From Verrucomicrobiota bacterium (GTDB taxonomy: Bacteria; Verrucomicrobiota; Verrucomicrobiia; Verrucomicrobiales; Akkermansiaceae), in the NCBI GenBank assembly GCA_004293445.1, contig RDYP01000017.1, positions 18,443-82,442 on the forward strand: DNA of 64,000 bases. The letters are read 5' to 3'. Position 1 is the stretch's first letter, and every line of letters begins with the position of its first letter. The translations under genes and the position numbers were made by a program. Positions 48,985-52,987 of this stretch are shown here, piece after piece. A model generated the notes under the pieces. That model saw only the letters and a program-made list of their open reading frames with translations, made no database searches and had not been told where the DNA came from.

Positions 48985-50100
48985 TCAACACGGGACTTTA
49001 GCCCGGAGCGCGACGGCGACCTCGTGGAAGGCGGCGGAGACCGGGTGTTCGTCGGCTGGAATGAGTGCGACCGGCGTGCCGGCATCACCGCGTTCCCGGG
49101 TTTGTGGATCGATGGGGATGCGGGCGAGGAGGGGCACATTCATTGCGGCGGCTTCGCGGACGCCACCGCCTTCGCCGAAGAGGTAATAGCGCTGACCGTG
49201 GTCGCACTCGAACCAGGCCATGTTTTCGATGAGGCCGAGGATGGAAACGTTCACCTTGGCGAACATGGCGACGGCTTTCCGGGCATCGATCAATGCCATC
49301 TCCTGCGGAGTGGTCACGATCACGGCACCGTCGACGGCGACCGTTTGGACGATGGTCAATTGGATGTCGCCGGTGCCGGGTGGGAGGTCGAGAATGAGGT
49401 AGTCGAGTTCGCCCCAGGCGACTTGGCGGAGGAACTGCTGGGTGTAGCGGGTGGCCATCGGTCCACGGACGATCACCGGGGAGCGGTCTTCCAGCAGAAA
49501 GCCCATGGACATGAGTTTCAGGCCGTGCGCTTCGATAGGAATGATCTCGTCGTGTTCATTCGCCATCGGGCGCTCGTGGCTCCCGAACATTTGGGCGACG
49601 GAGGGACCGTAGAGGTCGCAGTCGCAGAGACCGACCTTGGCTCCGGACTTGGCGAGGGCGACGGCAAGGTTCGCGGCGACGGTCGATTTGCCGACTCCGC
49701 CTTTGCCGGATGCGACGGCGATCACGCGCTTGACCCCGGGGATGGAGGATTTACCTTGGATCTCGCCGGAAGTGGTGGCGCCTTGGCCTTGGGGTTCCTT
49801 AATCTCGATTTCCACTTTCACCGTCCCGATGCCGGGTAGGGGATCGAGGATGGCGTGGCAGTCCTTGAAAATTTGTTCCGGGACTTTCGGGTCCTTGGTT
49901 TGGACCTCGATTTGAACGATCAACTGTCCTTCCTCGTGGCGGATCGCTTTGACCAGGCCGAAGGAGACGATGTCCCGGGAGAATCCGGGGTAGCGGACGT
50001 TGCGGAGGGCTTCCTTGATGAATTCGGCAGTCACGGCGGCGGTAGCAATGGCGGGATGCGGGTCGCTGTCAACCCGGGTGATGGGAATGGTGGGCGGCAT
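48985..50100 (-). CDS. Mrp/ApbC-family P-loop ATPase (iron-sulfur carrier type)
   Basis: 371 aa. An N-terminal MIP18/DUF59-like domain (VTAEFIKEALRNVRYPGFSRDIVSFGLVKAI) is followed by the deviant Walker A of the MinD/Mrp group, ASGKGGVGKSTVAANLA, then CDCDLYGPSVAQMFG, LDYLILDLPPGTGDIQL, and TTPQEMALIDARKAV. The family carries Fe-S clusters on a CxxC pair after ENM. Here the site reads ENMAWFECDHGQRYY, so the second Cys is absent. The tracked start overlaps moaE by 32 bases; a GTG at 50034 giving VTAEFIKEAL fits the family better. Last of the molybdopterin genes. Confidence 0.93.
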   Translation of the reverse strand: MPPTIPITRVDSDPHPAIATAAVTAEFIKEALRNVRYPGFSRDIVSFGLVKAIRHEEGQLIVQIEVQTKDPKVPEQIFKDCHAILDPLPGIGTVKVEIEIKEPQGQGATTSGEIQGKSSIPGVKRVIAVASGKGGVGKSTVAANLAVALAKSGAKVGLCDCDLYGPSVAQMFGSHERPMANEHDEIIPIEAHGLKLMSMGFLLEDRSPVIVRGPMATRYTQQFLRQVAWGELDYLILDLPPGTGDIQLTIVQTVAVDGAVIVTTPQEMALIDARKAVAMFAKVNVSILGLIENMAWFECDHGQRYYLFGEGGGVREAAAMNVPLLARIPIDPQTRERGDAGTPVALIPADEHPVSAAFHEVAVALRAKVPC

Positions 50101-50518
50101 CGTGGCAGTGGTCGCAGCGGACCCATCCGGATTCGCCGTCGACGAAGTGCTCTTTTTTCCAGATCGGGACGCGGGCTTTCAACTCATCGATGAGGTAACG
50201 GCAGGCGTCGAAGGCGGCGTCGCGGTGGGCGGCGGAAACGGCGACGACGACGGCGAGTTCCCCAACTTTCAGATGGCCGACCCGGTGTTGGCATGCGGCG
50301 TGGAGAATCCCGAAGCGCTCCTTTGCTTCGGCGACGATCCGGTTTCCTTCTTTCTCGGCCAAACTACGATAGGCTTCGTAGTCCAGGGCGTGGACGTCGC
50401 GGCCTTGGTGGTGATTGCGGACCCAGCCTTCGAAAGAGCAGAAGGCACCGGCGGCGGGATCGAGCGCTTGTTGCCGCAGGACAGCCGGGTCGATCGGTTG
50501 GGTGACGATGGTGAACAT
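50069..50518 (-). CDS. moaE: Molybdopterin synthase catalytic subunit MoaE
   Basis: 149 aa. Conserved MoaE blocks: GAFCSFEGWVRNHHQGRDVHALDYEAY, IAVAEAKERFG-like helix, CQHRVGHLKVGELAVVVAVSAAHRDAAFDACRYLIDELKARVPIWKKEHF with the active-site Lys pair. With MoaD it inserts two sulfurs into cPMP. The C-terminus carries an unusual Cys/His-rich tail (RCDHCHDAAHHSHH). Located 3 bases after the mobA-moaD fusion gene that supplies its partner. Confidence 0.96.
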   Translation of the reverse strand: MFTIVTQPIDPAVLRQQALDPAAGAFCSFEGWVRNHHQGRDVHALDYEAYRSLAEKEGNRIVAEAKERFGILHAACQHRVGHLKVGELAVVVAVSAAHRDAAFDACRYLIDELKARVPIWKKEHFVDGESGWVRCDHCHDAAHHSHHPG

Positions 50519-50521
50519 GGG

Positions 50522-51340
50522 TCAGCCGCCGGCGACGGGTGGGATGAAGACGAGTTCGTCGCCATCGACGAGGAGCTGGTCCCAGGTGGTGAAGTCGCCG
50601 TTGCGAGCGACGCGCAGGCTATCGATATCGAGCGGCAGGCGATGGCGGAAGCGGAGTTCGGCGTAGAGTCCGGCGGGGGTGCAGGCGAGGCTGGCGACGC
50701 GTTCTTCGTCAAGGCCTCGGGCCTCGCGGAGCTTGGCGAAATAGAGGACGTTCAGGGTTTTCAGGGTGACGCCGTGCTGCAGCTTGGCGAAGCACTCGGC
50801 GAGTTCGTCCGGGGTGTTCGCATTGTCGAGTGCGGTGGCGTTGGGGAGAGTGAGGATTTGTGGCGCGAGGGCCTCGAGAAAATGGCGGGCGCAGCGTTCG
50901 CCGCTGGCAAGGGCGTGGCTGGCGGCGGCGAGGGATGGGGCGGAGTAGATCGTGCAGAGGGGTTCGGGCCGGGCATCGATGCGGTTGGCGTAACAGGTGG
51001 CAGCCGCCGTGGGATCGTGGTGTTCGACGAGGTGATGGAGGGTGGGCGAGTCGAGGAGGAAAAGATCGCCGCCGATGACGAGAGCGCTGTCGTTGCTTCG
51101 GGCTGCGAGGCTTGCCAGAGCAGCGAGCGGGCCTTCGCCGGGAACGGCATCGGGTAGCGCCGTGACGCCCTCAGGCAGGTTGAGGGTGGGGTCATTGGTG
51201 GAGACGATGATCTCGGAAGAGATCTCGCGGGCGAGTTCCAGCAAGTGGTCGAGCTGGCGGCCGCCATCGGGTCGGAGGATGGAGCTTTTGTCGCGGCCCA
51301 TGCGTCGGCTTTTCCCGCCGCTAAGGATGAGAATGATCAT
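50522..51340 (-). CDS. MobA-MoaD fusion protein
   Basis: 272 aa in two parts. Residues 1-188 form a MobA-like molybdenum cofactor nucleotidyltransferase: ILSGGKSRRMGRDKS (nucleotide loop), DAVPGEGPLAAL, VIGGDLFLLD (metal Asp), and LDNANTPDEL near the end. Residues 192-272 form a ubiquitin-like MoaD: LKTLNVLYFAKLREARG at the start and LVDGDELVFIPPVAGG at the end, with the C-terminal Gly-Gly needed for thiocarboxylation. The reading frame is continuous, with no sign of a frameshift. This joins an early sulfur carrier to a late GMP-attaching enzyme. Lies between moaC and moaE. Confidence 0.9.
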   Translation of the reverse strand: MIILILSGGKSRRMGRDKSSILRPDGGRQLDHLLELAREISSEIIVSTNDPTLNLPEGVTALPDAVPGEGPLAALASLAARSNDSALVIGGDLFLLDSPTLHHLVEHHDPTAAATCYANRIDARPEPLCTIYSAPSLAAASHALASGERCARHFLEALAPQILTLPNATALDNANTPDELAECFAKLQHGVTLKTLNVLYFAKLREARGLDEERVASLACTPAGLYAELRFRHRLPLDIDSLRVARNGDFTTWDQLLVDGDELVFIPPVAGG

Positions 51341-51349
51341 CGCGGTGGC

Positions 51350-51820
51350 CTAGGGGGTGGCTTGGTAGTCGCTTTTTCCGCCGGACTTTTCCAGCAGGCG
51401 AATGCCGTGGATGGTCATGGCCGGGTCGAGGGCCTTGCACATGTCGTAGAAGGCGAGGGCGGCGATGCTGGCACCGGTGAGCGCTTCCATTTCGATGCCG
51501 GTTTTGCCGGTGGTTTTGCAGGTGCAGCGGATGAGGGCTTCCCGACCGGCGAAGGAGGTCTCGAACTTGCAACTGTCGAGCGGTAGCGGGTGGCAGAGGG
51601 GGATGAGGGTAGCGGTCTGTTTGGCGCCCATGGTTCCAGCGAGGATGGCGGTCTGGAAAACGGGGCCTTTTTTCGAAGCGAAGTCGCGTCCGTCGAACTG
51701 GGCGGCGACGGCATCGTTCACCGTGATCCGGGCCTCGGCGGTGGCGATGCGGATGGTGATTTCCTTCGCCGAGACGTCCACCATCGAGGCTTGGTTTTGA
51801 TCGTTGATGTGGGAGAGCAT
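51350..51820 (-). CDS. moaC: Cyclic pyranopterin monophosphate synthase MoaC
   Basis: 156 aa. SMVDVSAKEITIRIATAEA, GPVFQTAILAGTMGAKQTATLIPLCHPLPLDSC, TCKTTGKTGIEMEALTGASIAALAFYDMCKALDPAMTI and KSGGKSDY are the classical MoaC signatures, including the active-site HPL and the Lys/Asp residues. Acts after MoaA to form cPMP. No moaA is in the window. Starts 3 bases after the moeA stop. Confidence 0.97.
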   Translation of the reverse strand: MLSHINDQNQASMVDVSAKEITIRIATAEARITVNDAVAAQFDGRDFASKKGPVFQTAILAGTMGAKQTATLIPLCHPLPLDSCKFETSFAGREALIRCTCKTTGKTGIEMEALTGASIAALAFYDMCKALDPAMTIHGIRLLEKSGGKSDYQATP

Positions 51821-51823
51821 GAC

Positions 51824-52987
51824 TCAGAGGAAGGGGTGGAAAGCCAAGGGGGCGGTGGGGTCGAAGAGGGGGGCGGGTGGTAGTTCGACGAGTCCGATGC
51901 AGCCGGCGACGGAGATGAAATCGCCGGAGTTGGCGGGGGGACGAGCTTGAAGGGTGCCATCGGGGCCTGGTACGACGGTGAGCAGCCATGAGAAATCCGC
52001 GAGGGGTGCGGGAAGGTCTTTCATGGAGATCCGGGATGGAATGGGCTCGTGGCCTTCCATGCGGGAAAGGGCTGGCAGGACGTGGCGGGTGAAGGTGGCA
52101 AGGACGGACACGGGATTTCCTGGGAGGGCGAAAACGGCGGGTGGGCCGGGCCAGAACGCGAGGGGCTTGCCCGGGCGCTGGGCGACGCCGTGGAAGGCGG
52201 GCGGGCCGAGTCGTGCTTCGAGCAGGGTGCGGATGTGGTCCCGTTTGCCTTTTGAGATGCCACCGCACACGAGGAGCAGGTCGGCATCGAGGAGTGCGGC
52301 ATCGAGCAATGCCCCGCAGTTGTCAGGGTCGTCCGGAGCGTGGTCGTGAAAGACGAGGGGGTTCCCGCGCCGATGGAGTATGGCCTCGAGCATGGGGCCG
52401 TTCGAGCGGCGGATCTGCCAGGGGAGCGGAGTGCTGCCGGGCGGGACTGCCTCGTCGCCGGTGGAAAGGAGCGCAATTCGGGCCTGGCGAGTGACCTTGA
52501 TTTGATCGAGTCCGATGGATGCGGCGATGGCAATTTCGATGGGGCCGATGGGGCTGCCTGCGGCTACGAGAGTGTCACCAGCGCGGGCGTCGCTGCCGGT
52601 GGGGTGGATGAATTGGCCGGATCTCCAACCGGGTCGTGGGCGGCCGTGTTCGAGGTGTTCGTAGGGCACGACGGTGTCGCAGTCGTGGGGGACTTGGGCG
52701 CCTGTCATGATTTCCCAGGCCTGGCCCGGGCGGAGTGGAGGCGGTGTGTGGTTGCCCGCGGCGTGGAGTCCGGCGATGACCAGCGGACCGGTGGCGGGGA
52801 TTTGGGAGGAATCAAAGGCAACGCCATCCATCATGGCGCGTTGGTAGGGCGGGAAGTCGCGGTCGGCGATGAGTGGTGAGGCGAGCTTGCGGCCGATGCT
52901 CTGAGCGAGCGGCAAGCTTTCGTGGCCAAGTGCTATGAGGCGGGCCGTTAGCGAGTCGGCCTCGCGTGTGCTGATCAGGCGGTCCAC
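51824..52987 (-). CDS. moeA: Molybdopterin molybdenumtransferase MoeA
   Basis: 387 aa starting with GTG 52987. Blocks: FPPYQRAMMDGVAFDS (N-terminal MPT-binding), GQAWEIMTGAQVPHDCDTVVPYEHL, ALLSTGDEAVPPGSTPLPWQIRRSNGPML, LLVCGGISKGKRDHIRTLLE, FHGVAQRPGKPLAFW, VFALPGNPVSVLATFTRHVLPAL. Inserts molybdate into adenylated molybdopterin. The usual VSxGD reads VCGGISKGKRD. The start is 4 bases after the fbp stop, so transcription probably comes from upstream of fbp. Confidence 0.94.
   Translation of the reverse strand: MDRLISTREADSLTARLIALGHESLPLAQSIGRKLASPLIADRDFPPYQRAMMDGVAFDSSQIPATGPLVIAGLHAAGNHTPPPLRPGQAWEIMTGAQVPHDCDTVVPYEHLEHGRPRPGWRSGQFIHPTGSDARAGDTLVAAGSPIGPIEIAIAASIGLDQIKVTRQARIALLSTGDEAVPPGSTPLPWQIRRSNGPMLEAILHRRGNPLVFHDHAPDDPDNCGALLDAALLDADLLLVCGGISKGKRDHIRTLLEARLGPPAFHGVAQRPGKPLAFWPGPPAVFALPGNPVSVLATFTRHVLPALSRMEGHEPIPSRISMKDLPAPLADFSWLLTVVPGPDGTLQARPPANSGDFISVAGCIGLVELPPAPLFDPTAPLAFHPFL

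Follow-up and report, generated by a model that had tools for sequence, protein, structure and literature searches.

We have found that, in a 64,000-nt stretch of an Akkermansiaceae genome (hereafter the window), a MobA-type nucleotidyltransferase and a MoaD are encoded by one frame. The product is probably an uncleaved bifunctional protein, in which the MoaD tail would be free for MoeB and MoaE and the MobA half would make MGD. The frame begins with ATG, has no internal stops and encodes 272 aa that end with VAGG, in agreement with the initial annotation, in which a single MobA-MoaD frame ending in Gly-Gly had been recognized. Pfam NTP_transf_3 (PF12804) covers residues 4–158 with 92.5 bits (gathering cut-off 27) and ThiS (PF02597) residues 198–272 with 52.9 bits (gathering cut-off 22.5). 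The MobA half matches E. coli MobA (1e5k) in phmmer searches, and its top Foldseek matches are E. coli MobA structures; the MoaD half matches the PDB MoaD chain 1fm0_D by sequence, and its beta-grasp fold matches the MoaD chain 1nvi_D in Foldseek with a TMt of 0.82. Both halves score below the cut-offs of the NCBIfam equivalogs (62.9 vs. 151.85 bits for TIGR02665 and 51.9 vs. 66.15 bits for TIGR01682), and we assign the MobA half at the family level only and the MoaD half by Pfam and operon context only.

An alignment of 40 intact fusions contains 22 invariant columns, including P268, G271 and G272 as well as G8, G9, R13, G15, K18, D92, N173 and N175, the last eight of which are shared with E. 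coli MobA. The GG-x-S-x-RMG-x-x-K loop of MobA, the metal-site Asp and the N-x-N close to the domain end are all present in the fusion, and the C-terminal GG is found in all intact fusions.

Features of the fusion gene and its operon (positions in the window).
Feature	Position	Strand	Basis or remark
moeA (molybdenum insertase), first operon gene	51824..52987	-	Pfam MoeA_N and MoCF_biosynth
moaC (cyclic pyranopterin monophosphate synthase)	51350..51820	-	Pfam MoaC; NCBIfam TIGR00581 above cut-off
mobA-moaD fusion gene	50522..51340	-	One frame, 272 codons and stop
MobA-type nucleotidyltransferase domain, residues 1–189	50774..51340	-	Pfam, phmmer, Foldseek; end from DSSP of AlphaFold2 model
Codon of Cys150 (C-A-R motif), MobA domain	50891..50893	-	Column comparison across fusions and separate mobA
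Linker, four residues 190–193	50762..50773	-	DSSP of AlphaFold2 model
MoaD domain, residues 194–272	50525..50761	-	Pfam ThiS; PDB MoaD chains by sequence and fold
C-terminal Gly271-Gly272, expected thiocarboxylation residues	50525..50530	-	Identical in all 40 intact fusions of the alignment
moaE (MPT synthase large subunit), partner of the fused MoaD	50069..50518	-	Pfam MoaE, 135.1 bits
mrp/apbC-type iron-sulfur carrier gene	48985..50100	-	Pfam ParA/NUBPL; overlaps moaE 3′ end

The adjacency of moeA, moaC and moaE described in the initial annotation is borne out by Pfam, which identifies all three on the same strand, and three bases separate the stop codon of the fusion from moaE. The mrp/apbC-type gene still adjoins the decayed fusion gene in the relatives L056 and L058. 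The annotation had further called the operon moaA-less, which is correct for the operon itself, where none of moaA, mog/moaB and moeB is found, but not for the genome (G000, 97.4% complete; genome-wide statements rest on family searches). A search of the genome for moaA and moeB, as had been suggested, revealed one moaA away from the operon and a MoeB-type protein combining ThiF and rhodanese domains on contig C8. Both partners of a MoaD, moaE and a MoeB-type E1, are encoded in G000, as is a TcdA-like ThiF protein. Besides the fusion, there is one other ThiS-family gene, adjoining a radical-SAM gene that we take to be ThiH-like, and apart from this gene G000 has no MoaD other than the fusion. 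Nine other genomes with intact fusions have two ThiS-family matches each, one of them the fusion itself, except G074 (three) and G268 (one). Two MGD-type enzymes are encoded in G000, a formate dehydrogenase alpha subunit and a NasA/formate-dehydrogenase-like protein, both with a molybdopterin-dinucleotide domain; a third PF00384 match is presumably NuoG. Two findings go beyond the initial annotation: the MoaD half has decayed in relatives alongside a second pathway cluster, and Mog/MoaB was not found anywhere in G000, where the genome-wide PF00994 matches are CinA (L043) and the MoeA of the window only, this search covering G000 alone.

Conservation analysis of 388 genomes of a phylum sample and 260 genomes of Akkermansiaceae showed that the same fusion, which the annotation had proposed to look for in other genomes, recurs in the genus, the family and other families. 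Of the 260 family genomes, 131 have a match, and in 87 of these it runs as a single, unbroken stretch to residue 272. Because the same uninterrupted frame recurs in dozens of genomes, a sequencing error, named at the outset as a possible refutation, is ruled out, as is chance. The loci analyzed in detail, which include some duplicate loci from one genome, comprise 76 with one frame, 45 with separate adjacent genes and 13 without an adjacent MoaD. The two domain matches lie at a near-constant distance (36–42 bases in most fusions), and the main clade keeps the fusion near-universally, down to ∼35% identity. Unfused relatives share the operon order, and their moaD directly follows mobA, the two genes either overlapping or being separated by between a few and a few dozen bases. 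The gene order indicates that the fusion has its origin in a conserved moeA-moaC-mobA-moaD-moaE operon, where the frames of the neighboring, often overlapping genes mobA and moaD would have merged.

Fusions beyond the main clade were detected in G125, G074/G268 and G480, and independent fusions have apparently occurred elsewhere in the Verrucomicrobiota. A quick MobA-domain tree requires 6 changes between intact fusion and the other states, of which well-supported branches force at least 4, and 5 changes between fused (including decayed) and separate genes; as each change could be a gain or a loss, the count of independent fusions is approximate. In the metagenome-assembled genome of locus L036, mobA and moaD are separate although it falls inside the fused clade. 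Genome G559 carries two full-length copies of the fusion (C1:2793950-2794744 and 3036311-3037105), and its moaE is at 3214785. The mobA and moaD genes of a Komagataeibacter plasmid, which were considered as a further case, are not fused but separate genes with a 13-base overlap.

The stop codon of mobA might simply have been lost beside moaD, giving a long protein that works without further consequence. Such a neutral merging, to which we give somewhat less than an even chance, fits the observations that the two genes overlap or nearly touch in unfused relatives and that fusion apparently took place several times; its near-universal retention across deep divergence, the constant spacing and the compact model described below argue against it. 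It is compatible with the bifunctional mechanism and conflicts only with a benefit of the fusion.

An AlphaFold2 model based on the 40 aligned fusions (mean pLDDT 96.3, pTM 0.91) has both domains well folded, with only the end of the tail uncertain. The last MobA helix (177–189) is followed by the first MoaD strand (194–200), and the linker region between them is of high confidence with no disordered stretch. Strand 1 of a beta-grasp fold begins away from the C-terminal tail, and therefore MobA need not block the tail of MoaD. An N-terminally His6-tagged MoaD is still thiocarboxylated by MoeBR/MoeZR (PMC3227635).

In-frame ATG, GTG or TTG codons occur in the fusion of the window at codons 1, 14 and 33 only, so that a free MoaD could arise only via proteolysis or an unusual start; an internal start for a separate MoaD is thus unlikely. 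Of the 68 genes with a fused frame, whether intact or decayed, 22 lack such a codon around the MoaD border; these 22 include the six decayed genes. In the other 46, the codon is ATG in 16 only, and it mostly lacks a ribosome-binding match. A precursor split by proteolysis into ordinary MobA and MoaD proteins, the other refutation named at the outset, would resemble MoaX of Mycobacterium tuberculosis, which is cleaved and requires this cleavage into MoaD and MoaE (PMC4326299), and the many relatives with separate neighboring genes indicate that separate proteins work in this lineage. However, the cut in MoaX is needed because MoaE blocks the C-terminus of MoaD, which is already free in the fusion. 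With only four linker residues leading from helix to strand at high confidence and without disorder in the model, and with a near-constant spacing of the domain matches in most fusions, we regard such processing as unlikely.

The window's genus offers a natural experiment on the fused MoaD, as the MoaD half is decayed to graded extents in six of its species, all of which keep the MobA half conserved. The MoaD half scores 79 bits in G446, 63 in G451, 37 in G449 and 24 in G448 and falls below the threshold in G179 and G252, whereas the MobA scores of the six remain at 174–202. The Gly-Gly is lost in five of them and retained in G446. N173, which does not vary among the intact fusions, has been substituted in three of these six species, with the other motif residues retained. 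In G179, G252, G446, G448 and G451, the main MoaE belongs to another type and is encoded elsewhere, beside another moaD ending with PPVSGG, and these five genomes have a second, unrelated cluster with moeA-moaC-mog and moaD-moaE; G449, which is 72% complete and has a weak MoaE match only, was left out of this comparison. The other-type MoaE is present in 5/5 genomes with decayed and 0/25 searched genomes with intact fusions (Fisher 7e-6, where the decayed genomes may form one clade, with support 78, and represent perhaps one event). Two genomes with intact fusions, G510 and G452, have an extra weak MoaE match, apparently to an antisense frame.

Substitution patterns follow the same division. 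In five closely related intact pairs, pN/pS is 0.03–0.13 for MoaD and 0.14–0.30 for MobA, and it is higher for both halves in intact pairs at larger distance. For the decayed pair L204/L205, the values are 0.68 for MoaD and 0.09 for MobA (Fisher p 2e-8). Given the low pN/pS of the intact pairs and the decay alongside a second moaD-moaE, the fused MoaD is therefore strongly constrained unless another moaD exists. As judged from these gene comparisons, its decay where a replacement pathway was acquired shows that the MoaD half is normally in use. In L058 and L202, the decayed MoaD half of the C-terminal part is in frame, without stops, and contains a conserved GL-x-x-EL stretch; it may have a structural role. 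A model of L058 still predicts a fold for the decayed MoaD half (mean pLDDT 89.2), a weak indication as 8/9 alignment rows are intact fusions. A divergent second Moco cluster, with moeA-moaC-mog beside moaD-moaE, is found in several family genomes (L149, L150, L275–L280), and its patchy occurrence suggests horizontal transfer.

In the bifunctional protein that we favor, the MoaD half of the fusion would serve as the MoaD of the cell. Its free C-terminus, Gly272, would be adenylated and thiocarboxylated by the MoeB-rhodanese protein encoded elsewhere, and the intact, thiocarboxylated fusion would then dock into MoaE, the product of the next gene, so that the MoaD half could donate sulfur for the conversion of cPMP to MPT. 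The MobA half is predicted to add GMP to (Mo-)MPT, yielding the dinucleotide cofactor that would serve the formate dehydrogenase and nitrate-reductase-like enzymes of G000. The fusion would be retained because its MoaD half is indispensable, and any gain would lie in the fixed stoichiometry and in the proximity of MobA to MPT synthase. We infer the lack of cleavage, the enzymatic activities and the advantage of proximity. The initial annotation had described the fusion as linking the first and last steps of the pathway, which is imprecise: MoaA and MoaC carry out the first step, and MoaD and MoaE the second.

The decayed fusions also differ at residue 150 of the MobA half. This position is Cys in 64/64 intact fusions and in 42/43 separate mobA genes neighboring a standard moaD. 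In the six decayed fusions, it is occupied by His, Arg or Gly (Cys in 0/6). With added rows, the standard set has 109 Cys and 2 Ser and the other set Cys in 0/12, that is, Cys150 is lost in 12/12 rows with the set of the Mog-bearing clusters versus 2/111 standard rows. The other set here includes G449 on the basis of its clade, G244 and G499 on that of their type of moaD-moaE, and L093/L094 because a mog lies near their MobA. In the replacement clusters L149, L150 and L275–L280, mog follows moaC (the comparison comprised nine loci of the clusters of eight genomes, and all eight named loci matched), and the mog of L149 matches the NCBIfam molybdopterin adenylyltransferase above cut-off. The association of Cys150 loss with mog-bearing clusters is suggestive, not established: only 3 independent pairs differ on supported branches (5 on the whole tree), these 3 all in one direction (sign test p 0.25), and as the gene sets are exchanged whole, with MoaD, MoaE, MoeA, MoaC and Mog changing together, the cause is not separable. 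In L229 (G526, about 1489–2560), a genome with the other moaD-moaE type, the MobA frame continues into an apparent domain that we take, by eye, to be MOSC, giving an apparent MobA-MOSC fusion.

The Mog step is usually deemed necessary for efficient molybdenum insertion, and the association of mog with position 150 makes it testable whether MobA can replace Mog. In a pathway without Mog, the MobA half, or an adjacent MobA bearing Cys150, would guanylylate metal-free MPT straight from MPT synthase in place of the adenylylation by Mog, and MoeA would then load the guanylylated pterin with molybdenum. In this way, the fusion would link consecutive steps, Cys150 would help to receive MPT, and upon acquisition of a Mog-bearing cluster the MoaD half and Cys150 would both lose constraint. 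The restriction of the PF00994 matches of G000 to MoeA and CinA, the position of mog in the replacement clusters, and the joint decay of the fused MoaD and of Cys150 in genomes with such clusters are in line with this pathway, which we consider quite improbable. Against it stand the few independent pairs, the exchange of whole gene sets, a Mog search that covers a single genome, and the known substrate of MobA, which is metal-bearing MPT. Moreover, the Komagataeibacter genes keep the order mobA-moaD-moaE without Cys150, and in Methylorubrum a molybdenum-formate dehydrogenase was matured normally without mog, but with moaB present (PMC13197769).

Fusions in Moco biosynthesis are common, and MobA joined to MoaD is without description in the literature searched. 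Neither "MobA-MoaD" nor "MoaD-MobA" was named there (subscription papers and annotation databases were outside its scope), and no such fusion appears in the parts consulted of a survey of archaeal fusions (PMC11237513) and a survey of molybdenum utilization (PMC6147048), where other fusions are listed; it may already be recorded as a domain architecture. MobA is likewise fused, without MoaD, in the MobA-MobB (NF011059/PRK14490) and MoaC-MobA (NF011070/PRK14500) proteins, which are the top NCBIfam models for the MobA half, with scores far under their cut-offs (83.6 vs. 354 and 81.3 vs. 606 bits, respectively). In the MoaD-MoeB(R) fusions of Thaumarchaeota and others (PMC11237513), MoaD is also linked to a pathway enzyme, but to the activating enzyme instead of MobA. 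Apparent MoaE-MoeB fusions in one open frame were seen at L071, L073, L074, L076, L080, L097, L098 and L039, whose hosts are other Verrucomicrobiota and one gammaproteobacterial metagenome-assembled genome. MobA and MoaD of E. coli have the same folds and key motif residues as the two halves of the fusion, but are two proteins; E. coli also has Mog, and position 150 of its MobA is R, not Cys. The MoaX-like MoaD-MoaE fusions of Mycobacterium tuberculosis, Deinococcus and some archaea likewise combine MoaD with a protein of the Moco pathway in one frame. The present frame contains no MoaE domain, and moaE is a separate frame. In the MoaX-like fusions, MoaD is N-terminal and its Gly-Gly has to be released by proteolysis (PMC4326299; PMC11237513). 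In contrast to the MoaX type, the fusion described here carries MoaD at the C-terminus, with its tail free and MobA as its partner.
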